Origin: Oceaniferula flava | Lineage (GTDB): Bacteria; Verrucomicrobiota; Verrucomicrobiia; Verrucomicrobiales; Akkermansiaceae | DNA length: 64,000 bases | Direction: 5' to 3' | Assembly (NCBI RefSeq): GCF_016811075.1 | Contig: NZ_JAFBGL010000003.1 | Span: 248,001 to 312,000 of the forward strand | Shown here: positions 14,786-50,157 of the stretch, in pieces | Numbering within the stretch: position 1 is the stretch's first letter | Layout of the letters: every line of letters starts with the position of its first letter | Program-made: the position numbers and the translations under genes | Notes under the pieces: model-generated | Told to the model about the DNA's origin: nothing | What the model saw: only the letters and a program-made list of their open reading frames with translations | Databases searched by the model: none

Positions 14786-15840
14786 GCTTGAATTCATAAA
14801 CTAAGTGCAACGGTGATCCCCGCACGCTAACCAGCGGGACGAGCCATTGCCATCATGAAATACAGACACCTCAGCAAAGAAGAAAGATGCGTTATCGGGG
14901 CGCTCAGAATGCAGCGATTATCACTCCGGGCCATCGCTCAGCACCTCGGCAGATCCCCATCCACCATAAGCCGTGAGATCAAGCGCAACAGTCGAAGTCA
15001 GGACGGTCGTTACCGGGCGTCACACGCCGATTCAAACTACAACGCTCGCAAACGTTGGGCTCGCCGAGGCTCGCGTTTTGATTGGGGAGAGTGGAAAATC
15101 GTCGAGCGCTGTATCCGCGATGAATACAGCCCTGAGCAAACTGCGGGGAGGCTTAAACGAGAAGGGACGCTCTCCATCAGTCATGAAACGATCTACCTTC
15201 ATATCTGGAGAAACAAAAAGCTCGGAGGGACCCTGTATACCCATTTACGTGGTTCGCGTAAAAGGCGGCGCAAGCGCTGGGGTAGAAACGACAGCAGGGG
15301 CCGCCTTCCTGGTAAAACCATGATCACCGAACGGCCTGATGCGGCCAACCTCCGACAAGAAATAGGTCACTGGGAGCTCGACAGTGTGCTTGGATCCATC
15401 AGTGGCCGCCACTGTATATCCACCGTCGTGGATCGCATGTCAGGCTACCTTATGATCGGCAAGCTGGAAGCCAGGACAAAGTCGGAAACCAATCTACGTC
15501 TCTCCAAATTGATATCGCGTTGCGAGGGGCGCTTCAAGACCATCACCCCGGACAACGGGACTGAGTTCCACGGTTACCGTGAACTGGAGCAAAAGCATGG
15601 AGTGAAATTCTACTTCGCCCACCCTTATCACTCATGGGAACGTGGCACCAACGAGAACACAAATGGTCTGATCCGGCAGTATCTACCGAAGCGTCAGAGT
15701 ATGCATAACCTGACCCAAGCCAAGTGTAATGCCATTGCTAACAAGTTGAACAATAGACCGAGGAAAAGGCTCGGATACTTAACACCAAACGAAGTCTTCC
15801 ACGGATTATCTAACGTTGCACTTCATACTTGAACCTAAGC
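14786..15840. mobile_element. IS30-family insertion sequence in the integron array
   Basis: An element of about 1.05 kb bounded by imperfect inverted repeats of about 27 bases. Both inner ends are AAGTGCAACG (14803-14812 and its complement 15814-15823). Flanking AGC triplets at 14785-14787 and 15838-15840 would fit a 3-base target duplication, giving an element of 14788-15837. It contains one transposase gene. It inserted between the stop of cassette 1 and attC1, one or two bases outside the attC1 R'' box. No second copy is seen in the window. Confidence 0.85.
14855..15832 (+). CDS. IS30-family transposase
   Basis: A 325-residue DDE transposase. The N-terminal helix-turn-helix (LSLRAIAQHLGRSPSTISRE, residues about 22-41) is characteristic of IS30. 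Catalytic residues are visible at Asp176 (GHWELDSV), Asp233 (TITPDNGTEF) and Glu267 (GTNENTNGLIRQYLP). The length is normal and the frame intact, so the element may be active. The stop codon lies inside the right inverted repeat. It reads opposite to the cassette genes around it. Confidence 0.95.
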   Translation: MKYRHLSKEERCVIGALRMQRLSLRAIAQHLGRSPSTISREIKRNSRSQDGRYRASHADSNYNARKRWARRGSRFDWGEWKIVERCIRDEYSPEQTAGRLKREGTLSISHETIYLHIWRNKKLGGTLYTHLRGSRKRRRKRWGRNDSRGRLPGKTMITERPDAANLRQEIGHWELDSVLGSISGRHCISTVVDRMSGYLMIGKLEARTKSETNLRLSKLISRCEGRFKTITPDNGTEFHGYRELEQKHGVKFYFAHPYHSWERGTNENTNGLIRQYLPKRQSMHNLTQAKCNAIANKLNNRPRKRLGYLTPNEVFHGLSNVALHT

Positions 15841-15843
15841 AGT

Positions 15844-16428
15844 TTATTTTGTAGGGTTTTCTTGTGGTTTACAATGTGTTTTTAATTTTCTTAATCCGAT
15901 TCTGACAGCTCTACCTAACATGGGTATTTGCGATTGACCTCTGTCGGGATCGTAAAGTCGATTCGATGCAAAACGCATCTCAAAGCGTCGTTTACTGCAT
16001 TCTGAGATCTCACCGATGTTTAATCGTTCTAGAAACTGTCTGAGTAATAATGTCTTTGACTTATCAGATTGGTTTTTGGGCTGGTTGCCGTATTTGTTTT
16101 CGTTGTCATATTGGACAAACTGTTGAATCTCTGGAAATAAGAAAACCATTTCAGGACGTATCCCCTCGAACTCAGAATCACGATAGGAGAGAACCTGGGC
16201 TAATCCATCTAGACACTTCTTAACACTTTCTGATGATTGGGGAGCTTTGCACTCGATTACGAACCAGATTTTCTTAAAACCTTTTTGAATAGCAGTTGCT
16301 TTTGGATAGCAAAGAAAGTCAGCCTTAATGGATTCACCAGTTAACAGGTGGGTGCCTTTAGCTTCTGGAATCAATTTGAACTCAGTGCTGAGAAGTTCTT
16401 GAATTTTCTTCTTATATAGAGGTTCCAT
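15844..16428 (-). CDS. Cassette 1: PD-(D/E)XK nuclease-like protein
   Basis: About 194 residues from the ATG at 16428. An upstream open frame to 16458 would cross the attI recombination point and is not expected to be native. The region KADFLCYPK...WFVIECKAPQ places Asp37, Glu59 and Lys61 in the spacing of the PD-(D/E)XK nuclease core (D then ExK on a hydrophobic strand), as in restriction-type endonucleases and Holliday-junction resolvase folds. The C-terminus is basic (GRAVRIGLRKLKTHCK). As first cassette it should be the most strongly expressed from an integron promoter. A defence role is plausible but inferred. A nuclease-fold protein without activity cannot be excluded. Confidence 0.65.
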   Translation of the reverse strand: MEPLYKKKIQELLSTEFKLIPEAKGTHLLTGESIKADFLCYPKATAIQKGFKKIWFVIECKAPQSSESVKKCLDGLAQVLSYRDSEFEGIRPEMVFLFPEIQQFVQYDNENKYGNQPKNQSDKSKTLLLRQFLERLNIGEISECSKRRFEMRFASNRLYDPDRGQSQIPMLGRAVRIGLRKLKTHCKPQENPTK

Positions 16429-16560
16429 ACTTTTAGCATAACGTGTGGTTATTAACACAATGGAAAATCTATCAATTCCTTTATGTTCGTCCAGAAGATA
16501 ATTGCTACTATGGGTTATTTTCTGTTGGAAAATAACCGTATTTATTGGTAAAGCTAATCA
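16429..16560. promoter_or_regulatory. attI site and intI/cassette promoter region
   Basis: The first cassette joins here: the minus strand reads GTTATGC at 16442-16436, preceded by AAC. The remaining sequence up to intI should hold attI, the integrase promoter and the cassette promoter. A perfect 10-base-pair inverted repeat (GGTTATTTTC, 5-base loop, GAAAATAACC) lies at 16513-16537, 23 bases before the intI start. It could be an operator or a second integrase-binding element. No clear LexA box (CTGT-N8-ACAG) is visible. Confidence 0.65.
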
Positions 16561-17529
16561 ATGGCTGAAAAAGGTAAGCTTGAGATGAAATTGAGGACGA
16601 AGATGCGTCGGCGTGGTTTGGCGCGGAGAACTGAAAGTTCGTATGTCTCATGGTATAAGCATTACGTGAAATTTCACGGAATGAAGCATCCTGTGGATTT
16701 AGGTCAGGAGGGGGTGGAAGATTTTTTGGATTATTTAGCCTCGGTGAAAAAAGTGGCCTCATCAACGCAGAATCAAGCCTTTAGTGCCTTGCTATTTCTC
16801 TATCGCGAAGTGTTGGAAATTGAATTGAAGGAGATCGATGTTAAGCGGGCCAAAAGAAGGAAAACCTTGCCTGTTGTATTGAGTCAGGAAGAAGTGAGAA
16901 GGCTTTTGAAAGAGGTTCGCGATGGTGTGCCTGCCGTTTTCGTAAGCCTTTTGTATGGATGTGGGTTGCGCGTAAGTGAAGGGCTCAGGCTACGAATCAA
17001 AGATGTGGATTTTTCCAATGGTTTAGTGTGGCTGAGGGATGCCAAAGGGGGCAAGGACCGGACAGTGACTCTGCCCGGAAGTTTGGAGGTGCAGCTGAAA
17101 GGCCAAGTTCAGCAGGCCAGGCTACTATTTGAACAGGATGAGCGAGCTGGTGGCGCGAGGGTGAGTGTGGCGGCGTCCTATGATAAAAAACATGGAGGCC
17201 GACCAAGCCGTAGCTGGGAATGGTATTGGGTGTTTCCGGCAGCTCGCTTGGGCACTGACCCTGCGGATGGGGAGACCAAACGATATCACATCATGGAAGG
17301 TGCGGTGAGTAAGTGGATCAGTAAGGCCGCTGAAAAGGCACAGATACCGAAGAGAATCAGCGCGCATACTTTCCGCCACAGCTATGCGACGCATCTTTTA
17401 CAGAAAGGGGTGGATTTACGGACGATCCAAGAGGCCCTTGGGCACTCGAGTGTGAAAACGACAGAGATTTACACCCATGTGATCCACGCGATGTCCGGGC
17501 GGGCGGGGAGCCCGTTGGATGATTTGTAG
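16561..17529 (+). CDS. intI: Integron integrase IntI
   Basis: A 322-residue tyrosine recombinase. Catalytic residues are Arg137 (CGLRVSEG), His269 and Arg272 (HTFRHSYATHLL), His295 (LGHSS) and Tyr304 (TTEIYTHV). Between them lies the extra segment that distinguishes IntI from XerC/D (residues about 208-245: KKHGGRPSRSWEWYWVFPAA, then GTDPADGETKRYHI). It binds the extrahelical bases of folded attC sites. The C-terminus (GRAGSPLDDL) also matches IntI proteins (GVRSPLD). The gene reads away from a cassette array of opposite polarity, the standard integron layout. The start could be 16561 or the later Met at 16585. Confidence 0.95.
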   Translation: MAEKGKLEMKLRTKMRRRGLARRTESSYVSWYKHYVKFHGMKHPVDLGQEGVEDFLDYLASVKKVASSTQNQAFSALLFLYREVLEIELKEIDVKRAKRRKTLPVVLSQEEVRRLLKEVRDGVPAVFVSLLYGCGLRVSEGLRLRIKDVDFSNGLVWLRDAKGGKDRTVTLPGSLEVQLKGQVQQARLLFEQDERAGGARVSVAASYDKKHGGRPSRSWEWYWVFPAARLGTDPADGETKRYHIMEGAVSKWISKAAEKAQIPKRISAHTFRHSYATHLLQKGVDLRTIQEALGHSSVKTTEIYTHVIHAMSGRAGSPLDDL

Positions 17530-39271: not shown

Positions 39272-39736
39272 ATGCACATGCGATTCACAGACGAGGAGCT
39301 GCTCACCCTAGCGGAAATGTTGACGCTGGCGTGCTGGGCGACTTTTTGGAACCATAAACCGGGGGCCGATGAAGGCGTGGCGCGCTACGACGACATGTTG
39401 GAAAAAATTCTCACCCGCCTGCAGCACAATGGCCAGGGCAAGGAGGTGGAGCACGACCCCGAACGGCAACGACTCAGACTCAGCAAGCAGAAGGAAGAAG
39501 GATCATTCTACGCGCAATGCTACGATGAAATGCGCAACGAGACCTTCTGGGAAGAACTGGTCGCCCGCATGGCCGAGCGCGAGCTGCTGGCGAAGTATGG
39601 CGACAAACATCTCAACGCCCTCAGCGACGAGGAACGCAAAAAGATCACCGAACCAGTGAGCAAAAAATACTGGGAAGAGTTCTCCAGAAACGGCATCGGC
39701 AACCTTCATGTCATCGCCCGCCGGGAAATGGGATAG
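39272..39736 (+). CDS. Hypothetical protein, charged helical
   Basis: About 154 residues (Met1, or Met3 at 39278). It starts MHMRFTDEELLTLAEMLTLA and is rich in Glu, Arg and Lys, predicted mostly helical and cytoplasmic (YDEMRNETFWEELVARMAER; LSDEERKKITEPVSKKYWEE). I do not recognise a family. It follows the ABC-2 permease by 57 bases in the same direction and may be cotranscribed with it. Confidence 0.65.
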   Translation: MHMRFTDEELLTLAEMLTLACWATFWNHKPGADEGVARYDDMLEKILTRLQHNGQGKEVEHDPERQRLRLSKQKEEGSFYAQCYDEMRNETFWEELVARMAERELLAKYGDKHLNALSDEERKKITEPVSKKYWEEFSRNGIGNLHVIARREMG

Positions 39737-39769
39737 TTCACGGCTGCGTTCACCTGCCTGAGGTGCGGG

Positions 39770-39912
39770 GGTAGGGCAGATTGGCTCAATCTGCCGGATG
39801 GTAGCTGGGATGTTGGCACATGGGGAAATGGTTTACGAAGCCACCGTCCCCTCACTGGTCATGCCGAGGCTTAGCGCTCCGATCCGGAGGATTGCGGCCA
39901 ATCCTCCCTACC
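39770..39912. repeat. MITE-like element, copy 1
   Basis: A 143-base element with terminal inverted repeats: GGTAGGGCAGATTGG at the left, and the complement of GGTAGGGAGGATTGG at the right (13 of 15 bases agree). Each end folds on itself (GGCAGATTG/CAATCTGCC; GGAGGATTG/CAATCCTCC). No coding capacity is evident. A second copy follows 61 bases later. Confidence 0.85.
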
Positions 39913-39973
39913 ATGATGTCGCTCGTGGTGGCAGCTGGTTAGGTGTGTCACGGTCACCTGCTTGTGGTGCGGC

Positions 39974-40117
39974 GGTAGGGCAGATTGGCTCAATCTGCCG
40001 GATGGTGCCTGGGGTGGTGGCGCATGGGGGAATGGGCTACGAAGCCACCATCCCCCTCACTGGTCGCGCCAAGGCTGAGCGCTCCGATCCGGAGGATTGA
40101 GGCCAATCCTCCCTACC
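39974..40117. repeat. MITE-like element, copy 2
   Basis: A 144-base copy of the element at 39770-39912 in the same orientation, about 90% alike by eye, with the same end hairpins. The sequence in front of each copy is also similar (CACGG..G.TCACCTGC..G.GGTGCGG), so the true repeat unit is about 200 bases. It lies 9 bases from the stop of rtcA. Confidence 0.85.
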
Positions 40118-40125
40118 GTCTGACA

Positions 40126-41139
40126 TCATGGGCGGATGCTTATTTGATGCAGGTGATCGGCTTCTTGGGTGATGTGAATTGGCTCATTCAAAAACGCTTG
40201 GATCACCTTGATGTTGGTTTTGACATGATTGCTTGGGCTTAGCGTGATCATGCTGCCATCGCCTGCCAGGGCCATTGGGAGCAGCAGCTGATCGGCGAGG
40301 TGCGTTCCGACCACAGCGCCTGAGTTGAGGTAGTTTTTCATCGATTTGGCGGCGGCTCTCGCGACGCGTTCCGATGATTTTCCGTAGGTGCCGTGCGAGG
40401 TGACCATCTCGGTGACATGGCTGAATTGCATCATCGCCGATAGGCAGTTCCCCGGCGCTGAGGAGTCGCTGGCATCGATCGTTTCGCCACAGTCGGGATC
40501 CCAGCTCAGCGACTTGCAGGCCGCGGTGATTTCGCGCTCGGCGACGCTCTCCTGCACGTGAGCGAGGTGACACAGCACACGCCGCGATTGCTCCTCGCCT
40601 CGCTCGTTCAAATGCAGCGGTTTCAGCTCGGCGCAGGGTGAAATTCGGCAGCGGATCGCACCTCCACCGGCCGGCGCAAAACCATGACGCTGCAAATCCA
40701 GCTCCACCTTCGCCCCCATCTTGGTCAACTGGGGGAGGAAAACGTGTTGGAGAAAGCAGGCGCTTGGAGCCAGGGGATTATGAGTCCCTCCTTCTAACAA
40801 AATTGTCGACCCCTCACCGGCGCGCAGCAGGGCTGGAATCAATGTCTGGGCTAGCAGCGTGGTGCTGCCAGCGGTGCCGATCTTGAAATGGTAGTCGCCC
40901 GCAGTGATCGAGCCGGGGTTGAAAATGAGCTCGGTAGATCCCATCTCCGCGCCATCTGCCGAGCCGCCGGAGATTTCAAGCGCTGCCTGCACGCAGGTGA
41001 GGTGCTGGCGCATGAGACCTGGCTTTTTACGCAGTCCGCGAATGTTGGAAATGCGAAAAGCTTCCCCAGTGATCATGGAGAGCGAGAGAGCGGTGCGGAG
41101 GATCTGACCTCCGCCGTCTTGACCGTTGAGTGTTATCAT
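40126..41139 (-). CDS. rtcA: RNA 3'-terminal phosphate cyclase
   Basis: A 337-residue enzyme that converts RNA 3'-phosphate ends to 2',3'-cyclic phosphates using ATP. It starts MITLNGQDGGGQILRTALSL, the RtcA N-terminal signature. It continues with GLRKKPGLMRQHLTCVQAA and the segment TLLAQTLIPALLRAGEGSTI, then EGGTHNPLAPSACFLQHVFLP. The adenylated His of RtcA lies in the C-terminal region, where GTHLADQLLLPMALAG fits. It is 52 bases after rtcB and belongs to the rsr-Y RNA-rtcB-rtcA operon. Confidence 0.95.
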   Translation of the reverse strand: MITLNGQDGGGQILRTALSLSMITGEAFRISNIRGLRKKPGLMRQHLTCVQAALEISGGSADGAEMGSTELIFNPGSITAGDYHFKIGTAGSTTLLAQTLIPALLRAGEGSTILLEGGTHNPLAPSACFLQHVFLPQLTKMGAKVELDLQRHGFAPAGGGAIRCRISPCAELKPLHLNERGEEQSRRVLCHLAHVQESVAEREITAACKSLSWDPDCGETIDASDSSAPGNCLSAMMQFSHVTEMVTSHGTYGKSSERVARAAAKSMKNYLNSGAVVGTHLADQLLLPMALAGDGSMITLSPSNHVKTNIKVIQAFLNEPIHITQEADHLHQISIRP

Positions 41140-41191
41140 GGTGTTAGAAAAGATCCGTCAGATCAAACCGACCTGACGGATCTTGGTTTAG

Positions 41192-42673
41192 TTAGTCATC
41201 CGCCTTACTGGCATCCTTAATCACGAAGCGGGCGTCGAGCTTGGCCACGGTGTGGGCGAGCTCAGCTTTTTCCACGCTTTTGAGAACTTCGCTGAAGTCC
41301 TTGTAGGCATCGGGTGCTTCGTCACGGGGATACTTTCGGCAGTTGCTGAGGATGTCATGGGCATCGAGTTCGGTATCCACTTTTTCCTGATCGAGCGATC
41401 GGAATGCCTGTCCGCGTCCCAGACTGCGGCCGGCGCCGTGGTTCACCGAGTAGCAGGATTTCTCCGCTCCCGGCAGGGCGGCCATGACTACCGAGCCGTC
41501 GCGTGGGTTTCCAGGCAGTAGGATCGGGTGTCCGGTTTCGGAAAACGGCGTGTCTTTCAGGCTGTAGTGACCGGCAGGGAAGGCACGGGTCGCTCCCTTG
41601 CGGTGCACCCACTGGAACTGATCATTAACCTTCTCCTGACGCGCGATGTTATGGCTGATGAAGTAAACCAGCTGCCCGGTGGTGCCGGGGAGGATTTCTT
41701 GAAAAGCTTCTAACACCAGCGCGTTGATCAGCAGGTGGTTGACGGTGGCGAAGTTCGCTCCCAGCGACATGTCATCAATGTAAGCATCGGCTTCGGGTGT
41801 TCCCAGTGGCGCGTAGCAGAGGTGTTTGTCGTTGGCTGGGAAGGGGGTTCCCCAGGTATCGAATTTCTTCTGCAAACTACGGAACTGCGAGCTGGCGAGG
41901 TCGTGACCGAAACCACGAGACCCGCAGTGCGAGAGGAAGGCAATATTGCCGTCCGTTAGACCGAAGGTTTCGGCTGCGGTGCGTGCCTCGGGGGTGTCGG
42001 TGATGCTCACCGCTTCGGCCTCACCGAAGTGATTGCCTCCGCCGTAGGATCCGAACTGCTGCACCTTGCCTCGGAAGCGATCCGCGTAGCCGCCGCTGAG
42101 CATGCGGTCGAGCCGATCTTCCAGCGCGGCCTGTGATCGATCGTGACCCACGTGGAAGCTGTCTTCGCAGCGCTCTGCCCACTCGGGTGGGATCCCGATG
42201 GCTTCGCAAACTTCGTGAGACGCTCCTTGAGTCACCGCGAGCTTGCCGGTTTCGGCATCGATACTGCGTGATTTTTTTGCCGACCGCTGACCTTTTCCAG
42301 CCCCGGTGGGAGTGCGTTCGCAGATGGCGTTGATCAGGGCGCGGCGGGTGCTTTTGTCAGCAATCGCCTCCTGCGGCACGTTCATCTGGATCAGGCTCAT
42401 CGAGCACTTGATGTCCACGCCCACGGGGCCTGGGTAGATGTGTGTGGGCGAGGCCATCACACAGCCGATGGGTGCGTCGTAGCCGACGTGGGCGTCCGGG
42501 TTCAGCACCACCTCGGAAACGCCGGGGGCGGAGCGGGCGTTGAGGGCTTGAGAGAGACATTCGGACCCGAAGCCTTCACGGATCGCCTCGGTGCCGATCA
42601 CGGTGATCGGTTTACCTTTGTTATCGCGTGCGGGGAGGAAGCCGGTGGCTTCGCCGGTAGGGTGGATTTTCAT
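41192..42673 (-). CDS. rtcB: RNA-splicing ligase RtcB
   Basis: About 493 residues from the ATG at 42673. The open frame to 42829 runs through a Y RNA and is not coding. RtcB joins 2',3'-cyclic phosphate or 3'-phosphate RNA ends to 5'-OH ends with GTP and manganese. Metal- and GMP-site motifs are complete: NPDAHVGYDAPIGCVMAS, VGVDIKCSM, FLSHCGSRGFGHDLASSQF and the guanylylated His in VNHGAGRSLGRGQA. It is preceded by four Y RNA modules and followed by rtcA. Confidence 0.97.
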   Translation of the reverse strand: MKIHPTGEATGFLPARDNKGKPITVIGTEAIREGFGSECLSQALNARSAPGVSEVVLNPDAHVGYDAPIGCVMASPTHIYPGPVGVDIKCSMSLIQMNVPQEAIADKSTRRALINAICERTPTGAGKGQRSAKKSRSIDAETGKLAVTQGASHEVCEAIGIPPEWAERCEDSFHVGHDRSQAALEDRLDRMLSGGYADRFRGKVQQFGSYGGGNHFGEAEAVSITDTPEARTAAETFGLTDGNIAFLSHCGSRGFGHDLASSQFRSLQKKFDTWGTPFPANDKHLCYAPLGTPEADAYIDDMSLGANFATVNHLLINALVLEAFQEILPGTTGQLVYFISHNIARQEKVNDQFQWVHRKGATRAFPAGHYSLKDTPFSETGHPILLPGNPRDGSVVMAALPGAEKSCYSVNHGAGRSLGRGQAFRSLDQEKVDTELDAHDILSNCRKYPRDEAPDAYKDFSEVLKSVEKAELAHTVAKLDARFVIKDASKADD

Positions 42674-42703
42674 GATTTTGTTAGTGGAGTATGAGTTGAT
42701 TGG

Positions 42704-42838
42704 AAAGTGGTGACAAGGAGTTGAGAAACATTCTACTGCTCTACCAGGCTGAGCTACTGCGCGCTTTGTTAGAAACGGCAGGCCGGATTCGAACCAGCGA
42801 CCAATGGAGTCATGTAGTTCCTCTGGCATTCACCAGAT
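42704..42838 (-). ncRNA. Y RNA 4 (YrlA-like, with permuted tRNA mimic)
   Basis: The RNA reads from 42838 down. The Ro60-binding stem has CTGGTGAATGCCAGAGGAAC on the 5' side and CTCCTTGTCACCA on the 3' side. Inside, in order, are a variable-loop-like TGGTC, a T arm (GCTGG TTCGAAT CCGGC), an acceptor-like hairpin (CTGCCGTTT capped by CTAAC) and a classical D arm (GCTCAGCCTGGTAGAGC). T arm before acceptor before D arm is a circularly permuted tRNA, as known for YrlA, with the Y stem in place of the anticodon arm. Confidence 0.8.
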
Positions 42839-42855
42839 GGGTTTGATTTGGCTGT

Positions 42856-42974
42856 GGTTGGCGACAACCGGTGGGTGAGACATTTTCAGCTTCGTTAGAA
42901 GCCCACGGGGTTCGAACCCGCTCAAGCGTGTTTAGCGCTCTTGTCCGATGTAGTCTCACCCGCATTCGCCAGGT
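42856..42974 (-). ncRNA. Y RNA 3 (T-arm type)
   Basis: The 5' side ACCTGGCGAATGCGGGTGAG and 3' side CTCACCCACCGGTTGTCGCC form the Ro-binding stem (GGTGAGAC pairs perfectly with GTCTCACC; TGGCGA with TCGCCA). Inside are a serine-tRNA-like long variable arm (GAGCGCTAAACACGCTTGA), a T arm (GCGGG TTCGAAC CCCGT) and an acceptor-like hairpin (GCTTC TAAC GAAGC). No D arm is evident, so this mimic is shorter than those of Y RNAs 2 and 4. Confidence 0.75.
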
Positions 42975-42990
42975 GATTGGATTTGAAAAA

Positions 42991-43155
42991 TTTTGGTAAT
43001 GGATGGCAACAAGGGGGAGTGAAACGTTTTCGCGCTCTGCCTCTGAGCTACCGGGCCATAATTTGAAAAATGGTGGGCCCGGGTGGGACTCGAACCCACG
43101 ACCTCGCCGTCCATAACGATGTAGTTCCACAGGCATTTGCCAGCCATTACCAAAA
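42991..43155 (-). ncRNA. Y RNA 2 (YrlA-like, permuted tRNA mimic with CCA-like tail)
   Basis: A 12-base-pair closing stem (AAAAGGTAATGG-type ends: CCATTACCAAAA with TTTTGGTAATGG on the plus strand) encloses the Ro-binding core (TGGCAAATG and CTTGTTGCCA). The insert holds AGGTC, a perfect T arm (GTGGG TTCGAGT CCCAC), acceptor 3' strand CCGGGCC, then CACCA, a 13-base linker, acceptor 5' strand GGCCCGG, TA and a D arm (GCTC AGAGGCA GAGC). All seven acceptor pairs are Watson-Crick. This is a near-complete circularly permuted tRNA body. Confidence 0.82.
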
Positions 43156-43169
43156 GAATCTGTTTGCTG

Positions 43170-43250
43170 TGAGTTGCTGGCGACAAGGGAGTCGATGTGA
43201 CGTTTGACATAGGGTAAGATGTAGTCACGATCTGCATTCGCCAGCGAGGT
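43170..43250 (-). ncRNA. Y RNA 1 (simple stem-loop type)
   Basis: GCTGGCGAATGCAGATCGTG and GACTCCCTTGTCGCCAGC bound a hairpin of about 70 bases. GCTGGCGA pairs with TCGCCAGC, and GTGAC with GTCAC. The GGCGAATG...TTGTCGCC pair is the conserved Ro60-binding signature of bacterial Y RNAs. The loop contains CTACATC, shared by the modules downstream. No tRNA-like insert is present. It lies 30 bases after the rsr stop. Confidence 0.75.
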
Positions 43251-43280
43251 ATCCGTTTTACGAAGTTTCACACACAGGTG

Positions 43281-44876
43281 TTAGATAGCTTGTTTTTTCA
43301 TAGGTGTCTTGATGATGGTTTGATTGATTTCACCGATCCAGTGATCGGGGTGAAGTGATTTCGAAGCGAAGGCTGCGATGGTTTTGAAGACCTGGTCGGA
43401 AAATCCGCCGATGTTCAAGATGTCAGCACGTTCCTTCGCCTGGGTGGTTTCGTTCGGTGTGATATCGATGCAGACCATGCGGGCCTTGCTGTTACGCTGC
43501 TTGATCTGGTTCCACTCGCGCATGGTATTGGTCGCTCCGCCACCGAAGTATCCGTAGTGGGGAGAATCGATCCATGATTCGTTATCGGAAACAAAGATGA
43601 CCATGTCCACTGGGCGTCGGTATTTGTTGAGCCAGGCGAGGGGCGCGCTGCAGTTGGTTCCTCCACAGGGGAGGCTGGCCAGCTTCGTCGCATTTGTCAT
43701 CACCGAGTCGCGTGGGTTGAGATTCACCTTCACCACATCGTTCTCGAAAGGAAGTACGATGGCATTCGGGTTCTTTCTCAAGATCGCAGCGGTGGTGAGT
43801 GCCGCGACATCGAGGCAGCGGGTTTTCGACGTGGAACCCTTGCGGTAGCCGGTGACCGATCCGTGCATCGAGCCGGAAACATCCGTGCAGACAACGACGT
43901 TTCCCTTGATCTCAGGAACATTTTCCAAGGCGATTTCCATCGCATCCTGAAGGGCGTTCTTGATTTTGTTAGGAACATCATCCCCGGCATTGAGATACGC
44001 GGCCATGAGCTGATAGGGGAAAGCGCGAGCCTGTCTGATGAGTCGTGGATTCTTCAGACGGTTGGCGATTTTTCCACTCATACCGATCATCTTAAACACG
44101 CCCTGACGGGCAAAGGTGTTCAGGTTCATACGAGTCATCTGCCACGGCGCATTCTTGGCAATGGTGAGCCAGTCACGCTTTCCAAGCTCAAGCGAGGTGA
44201 GCATCTGGAAGGGGACCTTGGGAGGATTTCCCTCACGTGTGAGCTTCCAGTTTTCATACTGACGGATCACGGAAGGAAGGTTCTCCTCGCTGTAGGCCCG
44301 ACCAATGAGGTAGGCGTAGAAGGCTTCACGCTGCGCGTTTTTAGGGCGAGGGTGCACCATCTTGATCACATCTGCTAGAGATGGTGACTGACCGATGGAC
44401 GCGGCGAGCAGAGCTTCATCGTTAACTCGATTCAACCATGCCTGCACCATACGCTTGGGCGCACTTCCGAGCGACTTCCGACCGGTGATTCCGGAGCGAA
44501 CGATCTGCACGAAGTTTCGCAGCATCTTGCCGTTATCGATGACCTGAGGGAAGATCTCGGCCAGCAGGGCGACATCGCGATTAGCTAACAGAGCACAAAG
44601 CAGGGCAGGGGTGTCCTTCATGTAGGCTTTGCGTCGGCTGTAAATGGCGGTCTTCGCGAGGAAGTGATCGTCCACCTGTCCGGCAAGCTCGATGATCTTC
44701 TCTAACTGCTCACCGGCGGTGGCGTAGAAGGTTCCGTTCAGGCAGCCGGTGGCCACGTATTGGGCCAAGGCGTGCTGGGGAGTGAAGGCGTAGGCACGAC
44801 CTCCTGCCAGGTTGGTGGCATTGGTTTGCGGCAATTTTTTTCCGCGAGTGGATTGGAATAGGTTTTTGTTAGCCAT
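43281..44876 (-). CDS. rsr: Ro60 orthologue (TROVE and vWA domain RNA-binding protein)
   Basis: About 531 residues from the ATG at 44876. The frame is open to 44924, but that stretch covers the sigma-54 promoter. The N-terminal TROVE HEAT-like ring (AFTPQHALAQYVATGCLNGT; KTAIYSRRKAYMKDTPALLC; QIVRSGITGRKSLGSAPKRM) binds Y RNA and misfolded RNA. The C-terminal von Willebrand A domain has the MIDAS motif CTDVSGSMHG, then PCGGTNCSAPLAWL and VDMVIFVSDNESW. In other bacteria, Rsr with Y RNA guides exonucleases for RNA quality control. It is the first gene of the Y RNA-rtcB-rtcA operon. Confidence 0.95.
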   Translation of the reverse strand: MANKNLFQSTRGKKLPQTNATNLAGGRAYAFTPQHALAQYVATGCLNGTFYATAGEQLEKIIELAGQVDDHFLAKTAIYSRRKAYMKDTPALLCALLANRDVALLAEIFPQVIDNGKMLRNFVQIVRSGITGRKSLGSAPKRMVQAWLNRVNDEALLAASIGQSPSLADVIKMVHPRPKNAQREAFYAYLIGRAYSEENLPSVIRQYENWKLTREGNPPKVPFQMLTSLELGKRDWLTIAKNAPWQMTRMNLNTFARQGVFKMIGMSGKIANRLKNPRLIRQARAFPYQLMAAYLNAGDDVPNKIKNALQDAMEIALENVPEIKGNVVVCTDVSGSMHGSVTGYRKGSTSKTRCLDVAALTTAAILRKNPNAIVLPFENDVVKVNLNPRDSVMTNATKLASLPCGGTNCSAPLAWLNKYRRPVDMVIFVSDNESWIDSPHYGYFGGGATNTMREWNQIKQRNSKARMVCIDITPNETTQAKERADILNIGGFSDQVFKTIAAFASKSLHPDHWIGEINQTIIKTPMKKQAI

Positions 44877-44907
44877 CTTGTTTGTGGTGGTGGTTGAAAA
44901 ACATAAT

Positions 44908-44923
44908 TGCAGAGGCTGTGCCA
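44908..44923 (-). promoter_or_regulatory. Sigma-54 promoter of the rsr operon
   Basis: The minus strand reads TGGCACAGCCTCTGCA. GG (-24) and GC (-12) are exactly 10 bases apart and the match to TGGCAC-N5-TTGCA is nearly complete. It lies about 32 bases before the rsr start, and the start point is predicted near 44898. This agrees with control by the sigma-54 activator RtcR encoded divergently. Confidence 0.88.
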
Positions 44924-45035
44924 AGTTTTTGATTGGGGTGTCTTGTCTATGTGTAACTAGTTAAAACAGAGGCGTATATGGTTGTCTTTGTTTTTTTATC
45001 GTGTAGTAGGGTGAAGGTTGTTTGTGAGTGTAAGG

Positions 45036-45066
45036 TAGAAAATTATCTGTATATATAGAAAATTAT
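45036..45066. promoter_or_regulatory. Candidate RtcR operator: direct repeats TAGAAAATTAT
   Basis: Two identical 11-base repeats at 45036-45046 and 45056-45066 are spaced 20 bases, two helical turns. They lie about 115-140 bases upstream of the sigma-54 promoter and 17 bases before rtcR. The position and phasing suit an upstream activator site. Binding by RtcR is inferred. Confidence 0.5.
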
Positions 45067-45082
45067 AGCGTATGAGGTGTTC

Positions 45083-46672
45083 ATGAAAAAGCGTGTAGTG
45101 ATGGGTTTCCTGGGGACCAAATTGGACATGGGCTTCGGTCCGGATCGTTGGGAGCGGTGGCGGCCTACGGTCTCGATCTGCTCGCAGGAGGGCTCGATGG
45201 TGGACCGCTATGAGCTGCTGTATGAGCAGCGCTATCAGAAGTTGGCAGACCGAGTGATGGAGGACCTCCGTCAGGTATCACCCGAGACCGACGTGCGCGG
45301 GCACATCGTGGGCATCAGGAAGCCCTGGGACTTTGAGGACGTGTTTGGTCACTTGCATGACTTCCTGAAGGGGTATGATTTCGATGTGGAAAAGGAGGAG
45401 TATGAAGCGCACATCACCACCGGAACTCACGTGGCACAGATCTGTCTGTTCCTCCTCACCGAATCTCGACACCTGCCGGGGAAACTTTTGCAAACCGGTC
45501 CGCCAAGAGGCCGCAAAGCCAAGACCGGTTTCGGCTCGGTGAGTCTGATCGATCTCGACCTCTCGAAATACGACCAGCTGGCCACCCGCTTCAATGCCGA
45601 GCAGTTAGAGGCACTGGATTTCCTCAAGTCCGGCATCGCCACGCGAAACAAAGCATTCAATGAGCTGATCGAAAAAATCGAAGTGGTCGCTCTCCGCTCG
45701 GCTGCACCGATCCTACTCACCGGTCCCACGGGGGCAGGGAAGTCTCAGCTGGCGCGGCGTATTTATGAACTCCGCCAGCAGCGCGGCGGCCTCGACGGTG
45801 GTTTTGTTGAGGTGAACTGTGCCACTCTGCGAGGCGACACCGCCATGAGTGCCTTGTTTGGTCATAAAAAAGGAGCGTTTACGGGGGCGCAATCTGACCG
45901 ACCCGGACTACTGCGCCAAGCCCATGGCGGCATGCTTTTCCTCGATGAAATCGGTGAGCTAGGCGTGGACGAACAAGCAGTGCTACTGCGTGCGGTGGAG
46001 GAGGGAATGTATCTACCCGTCGGTGCGGACCAGCCGGTGAAAAGTAAGTTCCAACTGATTGCCGGAACCAATCGTGATCTCAGCAAGGAAGTCAGCAGCG
46101 GTGGTTTCCGTGAAGATCTGTTAGCACGAATCAACGTCTGGACCTTCCAGCTGCCTGGCCTCGCGGATCGGACAGAAGACATCGAGCCGAATCTCGACTA
46201 TGAACTACGTGAGTTCTCTAACAAAAACGGCCGAGCCGTCACGTTCAACAAAGAAGCCCGACAAAATTTCCTGCAATTTGCCAAAAGCCCTCAAGCTCCC
46301 TGGCGAGGAAACTTCCGAGATCTCAACGCCGCCATAAGCCGGATGGCCACCCTGGCACCGCAAGGACGGATCAGAGCCGAAGAGGTGGCAGACGAATGCA
46401 AACGCCTCACCCAATCCTGGCACCGACCCGAAGAGGCTTCCATCGCAAACGACTTAAGCGAGGTATTGGAGCCTGACGTGTTAGAAAACATCGACCCCTT
46501 CGATGCCGTGCAGCTCAGCTATGTCGTGGAAGTATGCAGGAAATCCAAAAACATCAGCGAAGCCGGACGCACCCTCTTCGCAGTGTCCAGAGCACAGAAA
46601 AAGACCTCCAATGACTCAGACCGATTGAGAAAGTATCTCGCCAAGTTCGAGCTTCAGTTTGGTGACCTTTGA
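45083..46672 (+). CDS. rtcR: Sigma-54-dependent RNA-repair activator RtcR
   Basis: About 529 residues from the ATG at 45083, which fits the family start MKKRVVMGFLGTKLDMGFG. A GTG at 45077 is also open. The N-terminal CARF-like sensor domain (residues 1-180) contains WDFEDVFGHLHDFLKGYDF and EAHITTGTHVAQICLFLLTE. The AAA+ domain has Walker A GPTGAGKSQLARRI, the sigma-54 contact loop KKGAFTGAQ and Walker B GGMLFLDEIGELG. It ends with a C-terminal DNA-binding region. RtcR is known to sense RNA termini or fragments and switch on rtcBA. It is divergent from rsr. Confidence 0.96.
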   Translation: MKKRVVMGFLGTKLDMGFGPDRWERWRPTVSICSQEGSMVDRYELLYEQRYQKLADRVMEDLRQVSPETDVRGHIVGIRKPWDFEDVFGHLHDFLKGYDFDVEKEEYEAHITTGTHVAQICLFLLTESRHLPGKLLQTGPPRGRKAKTGFGSVSLIDLDLSKYDQLATRFNAEQLEALDFLKSGIATRNKAFNELIEKIEVVALRSAAPILLTGPTGAGKSQLARRIYELRQQRGGLDGGFVEVNCATLRGDTAMSALFGHKKGAFTGAQSDRPGLLRQAHGGMLFLDEIGELGVDEQAVLLRAVEEGMYLPVGADQPVKSKFQLIAGTNRDLSKEVSSGGFREDLLARINVWTFQLPGLADRTEDIEPNLDYELREFSNKNGRAVTFNKEARQNFLQFAKSPQAPWRGNFRDLNAAISRMATLAPQGRIRAEEVADECKRLTQSWHRPEEASIANDLSEVLEPDVLENIDPFDAVQLSYVVEVCRKSKNISEAGRTLFAVSRAQKKTSNDSDRLRKYLAKFELQFGDL

Positions 46673-46676
46673 GGTC

Positions 46677-47135
46677 TTAGCTGTCTGAAACCAATTTCTT
46701 TTCCTCTTCGGGGATCATAGGACTCGCCATGATTCCTGTGATGAGTTGCTGCAAGATCGTGTCGCTCAGGTCTGCTTGACCTCGGATCTCTTTGCGTTTC
46801 CATTGGTCTGCTAGTTCGACAAGGGACTTGGTGAAGACCGTGTTGCAGTTGACGCAGCTATCCACCTTGAAGTCCTGATAGTCGCTTGGGCTGATTTCCA
46901 CGACGGTTTCAGGTGGCAAGCTCTTACGCTTGCGGCGTGCGCGCACCTTCTCGACTTGTGATGATGCCACTGCGAGCAGGAGTAGCTTGTCGCCGTATGG
47001 ATCAAGATTGAGAACGATGAAGTAGTGAGGTTCTGTAGACGACAACCGCCGATCCACCATGTAGAAAACCGCCCCTTGGCGAATGAATCTCAGCTCAATG
47101 GGTAATTGCACGCCTCCAGAAAAAATTAACTCCAA
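46677..47135 (-). CDS. Candidate toxin of a Panacea toxin-antitoxin pair
   Basis: About 152 residues. IRQGAVFYMVDRRLSSTEPH, LDPYGDKLLLLAVASSQVEK, then DSCVNCNTVFTKSLVELADQ suggest a small beta-barrel of PemK/MazF-like plan, though the similarity is weak. The listed start is a TTG that overlaps the antitoxin end by 10 bases. A GTG at 47111, directly behind a GGAGG, is an alternative. The overlap indicates translational coupling. The toxin assignment rests mainly on pairing with the Panacea protein. Confidence 0.55.
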   Translation of the reverse strand: MELIFSGGVQLPIELRFIRQGAVFYMVDRRLSSTEPHYFIVLNLDPYGDKLLLLAVASSQVEKVRARRKRKSLPPETVVEISPSDYQDFKVDSCVNCNTVFTKSLVELADQWKRKEIRGQADLSDTILQQLITGIMASPMIPEEEKKLVSDS

Positions 47136-47728
47136 ATACTTTCCACGGCTTGGAGAGAATGCAGTTCCTCAGCCAAATCCTCTTTGACCTCCTCGGTGAG
47201 CAGGGGAAGTCTTTCCACTCCCTTTTCAGGGTTTTCCAGGAAATCAAGATAGCTCATAAATCTCCGGGTAGCCTGTTCGGAATCCAAGGCTGCTTTGTGC
47301 TGCTGCCATTCAGGAAACCGATGGGTTTCCTCGGCGAGTTCGAACTGGTCCTTATCTTTGTAATTTTCCCAAGCGTAGTTCAGAGATTCAAGATCGGTCT
47401 GAGAGAGCACCGTTTCATTGACGGCAGCCTTGGATGCGTAGTGCTCATTGTTTTCCCGTTCGAGGAATGCTTGGCGGTATGTATTTTCCTCCGGTGCCGT
47501 GTAGTCTTCGTTTTCGTTGAGAAGGTTGAGGCACTGCGACGCCACCGGCCCAAACTTCATGGCGAAGTAAGTGTCGTTGGTAATCGGCCGACCGTAACTG
47601 CGGAGGTGATAGCGATCTGCAAAATAGATCAGCTTGAGAGCCTTCATTTTGTTGATCTTTCCACCTGCAGCACGAGCGAAGAAGTTCAACGCTTGAGTAG
47701 CCTTTTTATGGGAAAAGGAGAGTTGCAT
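47126..47728 (-). CDS. Panacea (DUF4065/SocA-type) antitoxin-like protein
   Basis: A 200-residue protein. The N-terminal Panacea domain reads FSHKKATQALNFFARAAGGK, INKMKALKLIYFADRYHLRS and GRPITNDTYFAMKFGPV, the GepA/SocA-like signature. The C-terminal half is helical and acidic, ending LTEEVKEDLAEELHSLQAVE. Panacea proteins are known as promiscuous antitoxins encoded next to diverse toxins. Here the partner is the overlapping gene downstream. An inverted repeat upstream (47765-47795) may be the operator. Confidence 0.82.
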   Translation of the reverse strand: MQLSFSHKKATQALNFFARAAGGKINKMKALKLIYFADRYHLRSYGRPITNDTYFAMKFGPVASQCLNLLNENEDYTAPEENTYRQAFLERENNEHYASKAAVNETVLSQTDLESLNYAWENYKDKDQFELAEETHRFPEWQQHKAALDSEQATRRFMSYLDFLENPEKGVERLPLLTEEVKEDLAEELHSLQAVESIWS

Positions 47729-47764
47729 GGCGGTTTTAACATGGACATGAGTGGAGAGTTACCC

Positions 47765-47795
47765 CTCTCACTGTTCAAGAGAGTATATGTGAGAG
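47765..47795. promoter_or_regulatory. Inverted repeat upstream of the Panacea gene
   Basis: CTCTCAC and GTGAGAG are separated by 17 bases, starting 37 bases before the antitoxin start codon. A site for autoregulation is possible. Nothing more can be said from sequence. Confidence 0.4.
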
Positions 47796-47968
47796 TGACG
47801 ATTTGCAAGGAGAGATAACTGGGCTAAAAATCACTCTCAATTATTAATCGATAGGTCTTTGTTTAGCGAAGTGGGGCTTTGGGGGTCGGACGATAGGTGT
47901 TTTTTTAGGGCTGTACAGTGAGCCATGGAATGGATCCCTTTGTGACACTCATTACCATACAAATTTGG

Positions 47969-49984
47969 TTATTGCGGTGACTCCTCGTCAATGTCCTTCT
48001 GGTCTTCTTGATTTGTAGCGGGAAGGAATTTGGCATGTGCTTTCTCTAGGTATGCTCGAGAACTATCCCTGGTCGCTTTGTAGTCGAGGGATTGGTTGAT
48101 GAATTGAAGCCGTGTCCGTGCATTAGCGATGATCTCAGTCCATTCAAATGCCCAAACCTCGATATTTAATTCACCGTCATCAAAAACCATTCCCCGAGGC
48201 TTATCACGCTGTCGCGCTTTTCTTTTTGCGTGCTCGTCCATATCGTTGGATACAGCGATGAACTTCCAACGCGTTTTGTCTGTTAGGAATCTAGGGTCTT
48301 TAGCGACGGCGATCGCGTAGCTCTCAATTTGTCCTAGAACTTTCGATGAGATTTTCTGTGATGGTCGTTTTAGTTCTACGATCAAATGGTCATACTCGTC
48401 TTCTCGCGGTTGAATCGTTCGACTTAACATTAGGTCAACCCGGCCTTGTTGGTCGTCTTCCCGTAACACCGGTTTGTCCTCAGCATCCGAATCCTCTCGT
48501 TTGCCTAGCTCACTGAGGTGGATTTTAAGCACGTCTTCTAGAGTTTCTTCACTACCAGCTAGTGTAAAGTTATCGTCGAAGATCCACGACTCAGTTTCAA
48601 GGATTTTGTGTAACTGATCACGCTCTAACAATTTTTTCTTAGTTGTCTTATCGAAAAGTAGGTTTTCTAGTGCTACTAGAAAATTTAGACGGTTTGCTAC
48701 AATGCTGGCCGAACTAATAATGTTAGATAGAGGGGTTTCTTCTAGGAGTTCAGCCAATTCGTCTTGTTCGTCTTGTTTCAGAGATAATACGTCTGTAATA
48801 ATCTTCCTAACGGAACTGGGGTTGTCTCGAAGAGCTTGCGCGAGAAGAAGAAATGTGAATTTTCTGGCGTTATGATCAGCTTCCTCGAATTTTGGGAGAT
48901 ATTCTTCCAATGTCACACCGAGAATATCAAAAACTTGACGCTCAGTTTCCTCGACAGCGGTAATCGCGCCTTGATCCTCGTAGGGGTAGATTTTTTCAGT
49001 TTTCCATCTCTGGACTAGAGATCTAGCTCGTTCTGCCGTTCGCTTTCGAAAGTAACCTCGTAACTCGTTTCGAGCGCTATTCAGAATGCAATTAACGTCT
49101 GGGACGAGATCATCCATTGATAGGAGGTTCTCCTTGTCGAGTTCTCGAAAATGGTCGCAATTTACGTATGCTGTAAATTGGAATCCTGGAGCCTGGATTC
49201 CTGCATCTGTCGTGTGGAGAGAGACCCCTGCTTTGTCACAGAGATGAATTGCACGTGGTGTTGGAACAGCCCATTCAATTATGGTTACCATGGCATCTAC
49301 TTTATTACCATTAGCAAGGGTTATCCCCTTGATGAAACGGTCCTCTTTTTTCCTTTGAATACTTGCAGGGTCAATTGTTTCACCATCTAGTATAATTGAA
49401 ACTTGAGGGTATTGACTTAAGTAAGCTGCAAAAAGCTTGGCAAACTCAGTTGGTGCTTTGTCCGAAGTCAGTGCTCCCAACCCTTCACTGATGCCTGAAA
49501 TAACAACTGTAGTTCCTAGGTGGGATTTATTAGTTTCCTTGGGGGTAGTTGTATGCATGCGGTTGAGGGAGCTAGCATCACCTACGATTTGATAGCTATT
49601 GAATGAATCCTTTACCTTATAAGTTGTCTTCCACGTGACACGGCTACCTAATGCAAATGCGTGGAGGCGGCCTTGACCATTTTTACCGTGTAATGCTCGG
49701 CCGTTCACCTTTCCGTGGTTCTTCTTCCAAGAGTCGCCAAGTTTACCAAAAAATAATTCGGACTCTTCGTAAGAAATGCCAGAGCCTTGATCAATGACTC
49801 GAATTTCGTCAATCGCTCCAAGCTTGTTTTTTGAGAATTCCACTTGGACCGAGTCCGAGCCTGAATCTAGGCCGTTCCAAATTAGTTCAGCAAGAGCTTT
49901 TATCGCTCCTGTAGAGCTAACTCGTTGCAGGAAGTCTTTTTCGACGGTCAGTGAAATAACACCGTTCTTAGTTGTTTCAGGCAT
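47969..49984 (-). CDS. GHKL ATPase fused to a PD-(D/E)XK nuclease domain; candidate defence protein
   Basis: About 671 residues from the ATG at 49984. The frame is open to 50038. The N-terminal GHKL (Hsp90/MutL-type) ATPase shows KALAELIWNGLDSGSDSV (N box), IDQGSGISYEES (G1, DxGxG) and GKNGQGRLHAFALGSRV (lid/G2). An S5-like transducer region follows, and the middle is long and helical. The C-terminal part has GRVDLMLSR and DHLIVELKRPSQ, the D...ExK core of a nuclease fold. Prokaryotic GHKL-S5 proteins of the MORC/MutL type linked to restriction nucleases are known from comparative studies. Base composition is AT-richer than its neighbours, suggesting acquisition. It lies beside the Panacea pair. 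Confidence 0.75.
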   Translation of the reverse strand: MPETTKNGVISLTVEKDFLQRVSSTGAIKALAELIWNGLDSGSDSVQVEFSKNKLGAIDEIRVIDQGSGISYEESELFFGKLGDSWKKNHGKVNGRALHGKNGQGRLHAFALGSRVTWKTTYKVKDSFNSYQIVGDASSLNRMHTTTPKETNKSHLGTTVVISGISEGLGALTSDKAPTEFAKLFAAYLSQYPQVSIILDGETIDPASIQRKKEDRFIKGITLANGNKVDAMVTIIEWAVPTPRAIHLCDKAGVSLHTTDAGIQAPGFQFTAYVNCDHFRELDKENLLSMDDLVPDVNCILNSARNELRGYFRKRTAERARSLVQRWKTEKIYPYEDQGAITAVEETERQVFDILGVTLEEYLPKFEEADHNARKFTFLLLAQALRDNPSSVRKIITDVLSLKQDEQDELAELLEETPLSNIISSASIVANRLNFLVALENLLFDKTTKKKLLERDQLHKILETESWIFDDNFTLAGSEETLEDVLKIHLSELGKREDSDAEDKPVLREDDQQGRVDLMLSRTIQPREDEYDHLIVELKRPSQKISSKVLGQIESYAIAVAKDPRFLTDKTRWKFIAVSNDMDEHAKRKARQRDKPRGMVFDDGELNIEVWAFEWTEIIANARTRLQFINQSLDYKATRDSSRAYLEKAHAKFLPATNQEDQKDIDEESPQ

Positions 49985-50157
49985 GCAGATTTGTGTTTTT
50001 AAGGATTGGCGAGTTTGGTATATCCGAGGCACCGACATGATTTTCTAGCAGTAGTCACCGTTGCCATCAAGGGATAACAAGTGGGAGGTAGCTATCATGG
50101 GCAATCGTTGATAGCGCTGATCGGCATCAATGTTCAATTTAGTCTTAGCGTTTCAGT

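Follow-up and report, generated by a model that had tools for sequence, protein, structure and literature searches.

A paraMORC3/VcSduA-like GHKL ATPase-nuclease from Oceaniferula flava, predicted to act as a self-contained restriction factor within a variable genomic block

What might a protein that joins a GHKL ATPase to a nuclease in one chain do for its host, and do its immediate neighbours belong to the same system? The question is raised by a locus in the 64,000-nucleotide stretch of Oceaniferula flava DNA analysed here (hereafter the window), where three open reading frames lie on the minus strand at 46677-49984, as placed by the initial annotation, which had read them as a candidate defence island with a GHKL-nuclease fusion beside a Panacea toxin-antitoxin pair. 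The fusion gene occupies 47969-49984 (minus strand), as supported by its reading frame, Pfam, alignment and a structure model. We favour ATG 49984 as its start, giving 671 residues, because homologues begin near this codon; a second ATG in the same frame, further upstream at 50038, would lengthen the protein by 18 residues (to 689). The AT-rich patch noticed at the outset is real, the GC content being 0.44 for this gene versus 0.55 for the whole window, and its GC3 is 0.41 where the neighbours mostly range from 0.6 to 0.7.

The N-terminal GHKL ATPase domain (about residues 8-165; 49490-49963, minus strand), delimited by Pfam, alignment, profile and model, matches HATPase_c_3 (E=1e-14) and carries the motifs E33, N37, D40 / D65xG67xG69 / H99G100xxG103xG105R106. 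It is followed on the same strand by a segment (about residues 206-293; 49106-49369) whose modelled fold suggests an S5-like transducer, by a middle region that is all-helical in the model (about residues 295-464; 48593-49102) and by a PD-(D/E)XK nuclease domain (about residues 467-636; 48077-48586) supported by Pfam, alignment, hhalign and model, with the residues D517 (48434-48436), E537 (48374-48376) and K539 (48368-48370). The HSDR_N_2 match in the C-terminal half (E=4e-4) falls short of the Pfam cut-off when taken alone; we consider it real because all ten full-length relatives scanned also match both families, so that HATPase_c_3 and HSDR_N_2 are found together in 11 of 11 members. When the window protein is aligned with 72 homologues from many phyla, E33, N37, D40, D65, G67, G69, H99, G100, G103, G105 and R106 are invariant in the 73 sequences, as are the nuclease residues D517, E537 and K539. 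Seven further, divergent full-length proteins retain all three nuclease residues and most of the ATPase positions, E33 being replaced by Gln in one of them and H99 being variable.

A structure prediction, also suggested by the initial annotation, gave a confident AlphaFold2 model (mean pLDDT 90.4, pTM 0.63), which in Foldseek matched TRAP1/Hsp90, MORC4/MORC2/MORC3 and MutL over the ATPase part. The alignments to Hsp90 and MORC extend past the GHKL domain, which is followed in the model by an alpha/beta segment. MutL was likewise matched over the ATPase part by a profile search of the PDB; the profile was needed, single-sequence phmmer returning only chance-level matches there. Both the fusion and its C-terminal D...ExK core are thus upheld by invariant motifs, Pfam matches and the model. 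The resemblance to MutL, MORC and Hsp90 lies in the fold and motifs of the ATPase, whereas past this part they show no significant sequence match to the window protein. The MutL endonuclease domain has a fold different from that of the PD-(D/E)XK nuclease. A PD-(D/E)XK match alone cannot prove cleavage of DNA rather than RNA.

Two described groups share this architecture. ParaMORC3 proteins, predicted in 2008 by Iyer and colleagues, combine a GHKL-S5 ATPase with a restriction-fold nuclease bearing E-D-ExK; their copies are sporadic, some tied to restriction-modification (R-M) systems and a subset standalone, and proteobacteria and Bacteroidetes were stressed as hosts (PMC2292703). The window protein resembles them, as judged from the published description, in its intact GHKL motifs and its C-terminal restriction-fold nuclease with D...ExK, and its family is also sporadic, with R-M links or standalone copies; it differs in coming from Verrucomicrobiota. 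VcSduA, a V. cholerae VSP-II protein named Shedu type I-D by its authors, was found in 2025 to confer phage protection on E. coli and V. cholerae, and the substitutions E27A and K557A each abolish this defence (PMC12137116). Here too a single protein comprises an N-terminal GHKL ATPase, a middle region and a C-terminal PD-(D/E)xK nuclease, and the essential E27 and K557 have counterparts, by motif identity, in E33 and K539. However, the published Glu-to-Lys spacing of VcSduA is 530, against 506 in the window protein and 495-522 in its homologues. The Vibrio homologues that we found display a spacing of 505-515, and searches of Vibrio via PF14082 and via the family profile gave no protein with the spacing of 530. 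The proposed likeness to VcSduA consists of shared architecture and matching essential residues, orthology being a separate matter.

Since the defining DUF4263 signature goes undetected by Pfam (no match to DUF4263/SduA_C, PF14082, at E<=1 in 11 members including the window protein), we would file the protein as paraMORC3/VcSduA-like and not as a strict Shedu. A single hhalign comparison with the DUF4263 set gave a probability of 93% and E=3.4e-7 over an alignment spanning the ExK region, and the window nuclease and DUF4263 proteins appear to be related within the PD-(D/E)XK group. The suggestion that such a system is uncharacterised has to be withdrawn, its architecture having already been shown to be anti-phage in VcSduA (PMC12137116) and the family having been predicted (PMC2292703).

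How widespread is this gene? In whole-genome profile searches, counts were restricted to full-length matches, because most matches were short ones to the ATPase motifs, read as MutL or other GHKL proteins. Across 289 genomes of the phylum, four full-length copies were obtained, one of them in the genome of the window itself, and 228 Vibrio genomes yielded five canonical and seven divergent full-length copies. A separate search of 97 relatives, sampled from the genus, family and order, gave no full-length match. Relatives also number 424 in a species-level genome collection, occur in 46 plasmid records and are present in 11 of 5426 E. coli genomes; a scan of viral contigs with the GHKL protein detected none. 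This patchy distribution, together with the foreign composition, indicates that the gene was probably acquired horizontally.

Homologues do turn up in the defence-rich loci where it had been proposed to look for them: R-M operons, plasmids, prophages and a P4-like satellite. One neighbourhood combines Drt2, a methylase and an LlaMI-type nuclease, another contains a type ISP enzyme and another an abortive-infection gene; homologues are also present in Pasteurella phage records and, in E. coli, on a P4-like element at ssrA (two loci read). As a raw count, type I R-M genes lie within 6 kb of 10 of about 88 homologue loci, and PADLOC model matches near and far from homologues (320 versus 68, inflated by redundant type I models) point the same way. 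At one locus (L029, 7828-13402), RhuM, DUF4062 and T5orf172 genes flank the GHKL gene.

We therefore estimate at roughly three in four the probability that the window protein is a self-contained restriction factor of the paraMORC3 type, similar to VcSduA and predicted to restrict phage DNA. This reading is based on two intact active sites within a single chain, with a transducer-like segment and a long helical region linking them, on residues invariant across phyla, patchy distribution and foreign composition, and on the recurrence of relatives near R-M systems, on plasmids and in prophages. The conflict role proposed by the initial annotation is supported by the same contexts, the invariant motifs and the model. 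In the mechanism that we envisage, binding of ATP would cause the N-terminal GHKL domains to dimerise, as in MutL, Hsp90 and MORC, and closure of the dimer would make the middle region close on DNA; ATP turnover would then license the C-terminal nuclease domains, acting as a pair, for cleavage of incoming DNA, host DNA presumably being spared.

The direct mode of restriction supposed for the window protein is borrowed from VcSduA, which protected cultures at all multiplicities tested, leading its authors to propose direct restriction (PMC12137116). The same observation argues against an abortive-infection effector, in which a phage cue would unleash the nuclease on host DNA or RNA and the cell would die. 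We hold such an effector to be unlikely, although the GHKL part of such a fusion could serve as the gate of a suicidal nuclease, and a toxin-antitoxin-like pair and an RNA-repair cluster lie close by.

Among the nearest relatives, the gene is embedded in hsd operons, in the order HsdM-Fic-HsdS-GHKL-HsdR-YgjP with intergenic gaps of 10 and 14 nt in one case (L015) and HsdS-SIR2_2-GHKL-HsdR in the other (L016), and two more Verrucomicrobiota copies (L222 and L224) lie inside hsd clusters. These positions favour the idea of an accessory subunit of a type I R-M complex since lost, working with HsdM, HsdS and HsdR and inactive alone. Yet this seems improbable to us. Fic and SIR2-like genes also stand between hsd genes, which gives the GHKL position the look of a cargo slot; copies elsewhere mostly have no type I genes in the stretch searched; and the active-site residues of the window protein are intact though HsdR is unmatched in its genome (a search without positive control). 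The window copy is an orphan, without a type I R-M operon. Cargo genes (Fic, SIR2_2 and GHKL) amid type I R-M genes are visible at L015 4968-15880 and L016 1-10037, and it appears that close relatives of the window protein travel in this way within type I restriction operons.

The GHKL gene is part of a 10.4-kb block (39737-50157) missing from two congeneric genomes. These have the photolyase gene directly next to the orthologue of window 39272-39733, in convergent orientation, whereas in the window the same two convergent genes stand 10.4 kb apart. The block contains RtcA, RtcB, three YrlA matches, Ro60, RtcR, the Panacea pair and the GHKL gene. Its RNA-repair cluster spans 40126-46672. The RNA 3'-phosphate cyclase RtcA (RTC, PF01137; 40126-41139, minus strand) is the one PF01137 match among the reading frames and was placed by its position beside rtcB and by the matching order in L152. 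The RNA ligase RtcB follows (41192-42829, minus strand), its true start probably lying downstream because the N-terminus of the reading frame overlaps a YrlA match. The three YrlA (Y RNA-like) matches (42704-43143, minus strand) comprise one above the gathering score (42704-42836) and two below it (42855-42972 and 43000-43143). Beyond them are a Ro60/TROVE-vWA protein (43281-44924, minus strand) and the divergent regulator of the cluster, RtcR (45077-46672, plus strand). Among the sampled genomes of the genus, one alone encodes a full-length RtcR orthologue (71% identity, at another locus, L152), and one further genome has a 60%-identical C-terminal piece.

GC3 differs among the RNA-repair genes (0.65-0.69), the Panacea pair (0.58-0.62) and the GHKL gene (0.41), which suggests that the block was assembled by more than one arrival. 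The three are best explained as separate modules in one variable spot. That the block forms a composite island for stress and defence, with the Panacea partner as an RNA-cleaving toxin, RtcR as the sensor of the damage and RtcB/RtcA with Ro60-Y RNA mending it, while the GHKL nuclease restricts DNA alongside, strikes us as quite improbable. Already the term 'defence island' was too strong, given the adjoining RNA-repair cluster and the PADLOC results at E<=1e-3, which for 37 other reading frames of the window, up to 41.1 kb, amount to two weak matches (LmuB-like and CasR-like). PADLOC gave no match for the GHKL-nuclease protein.

The Panacea (SocA-like) antitoxin-type protein (200 aa; 47126-47728, minus strand) matches PF13274 at E=2e-24, as first recognised. 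Its partner (46677-47135, minus strand; 152 aa, or 144 aa from GTG 47111) has no match in Pfam, NCBIfam or PADLOC, none in the plasmid search and no notable one in the PDB, and its single-sequence fold is poor (pLDDT 41). The overlap ascribed to the two genes amounts to 10 nt across the Panacea stop if the partner starts at TTG 47135; it is abolished with GTG 47111, a start that matches that of a homologue. Panacea (PanA/SocA-like) toxin-antitoxin pairs are described as a PF13274 protein with a small adjacent gene (PMC8832971). The PF13274 protein of the window, with a small neighbour conserved in two other genomes, conforms to this outline, but its putative toxin partner fits no known family.

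Could these two genes and the GHKL gene form a three-gene, toxin-antitoxin-linked defence system? A common strand, an interval of 240 bp and a place in the same variable block would suit such a unit, which we nevertheless regard as very unlikely in view of the disparate GC3 values. The pair, known from three genomes in all, recurs in two genomes of the same order, next to type I hsdR and hsdS genes in one of them, with no GHKL gene in the stretches read (for L125, a contig of 6.6 kb only). Reciprocally, no Panacea gene is found in the annotated regions around GHKL homologues. Because it occurs in these two genomes with no GHKL gene seen nearby, we treat the pair as an independent module, best read as unrelated in function to the GHKL gene; the functional tie implied by the initial annotation is not sustained, and Panacea was rejected as a component of the GHKL system.

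Shorter GHKL proteins (about 370-550 aa), with the ATPase motifs retained but ending ahead of the nuclease, were observed in 14 genomes of the phylum (L188, L190-L193, L195-L203); one Verrucomicrobiota family has them in 12 of its 13 sampled genomes. The nuclease domain had no match in the stretches read around their genes, and the surroundings, where read by eye, are ordinary, lpxB-like or mcsA/mcsB/clpC-like. This protein looks like a settled, nuclease-free relative, and its ordinary gene surroundings in one family mean that the relatives cannot all be counted as defence genes. That the GHKL-nuclease itself serves MutL-like DNA repair or housekeeping, an idea to which these relatives and the MutL match of the GHKL part lend some colour, is hardly credible in the face of its patchy full-length distribution in the phylum, the mobile contexts of its homologues and a second, weak match elsewhere in the window's own genome, presumed to be MutL.

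If the window protein is indeed a self-contained restriction factor, it would bring Verrucomicrobiota into a class of single-protein anti-phage nucleases that the literature consulted has so far documented for one V. cholerae protein. The ATPase half persists without the nuclease and is near-universal in one Verrucomicrobiota family; comparing nuclease-bearing with nuclease-free relatives is thus a natural way to ask which function the ATPase has by itself.

Two other places in the window deserve mention. An AT-rich region at 14855-17526, without notable PADLOC match, contains a transposase-like gene (HTH_38 and rve, 14855-15829) and a phage-type integrase (16561-17526). The 10.4-kb block carries at its edge (39737-40128) a repeat of about 200 bp with paired palindromes, GGCAGATTG-NNN-CAATCTGCC and GGAGGATTG...CAATCCTCC, which fits no Rfam family at its gathering score. 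The genome has nine sites with the strict pattern of this repeat, most of them paired at a distance of about 200-230 bp.
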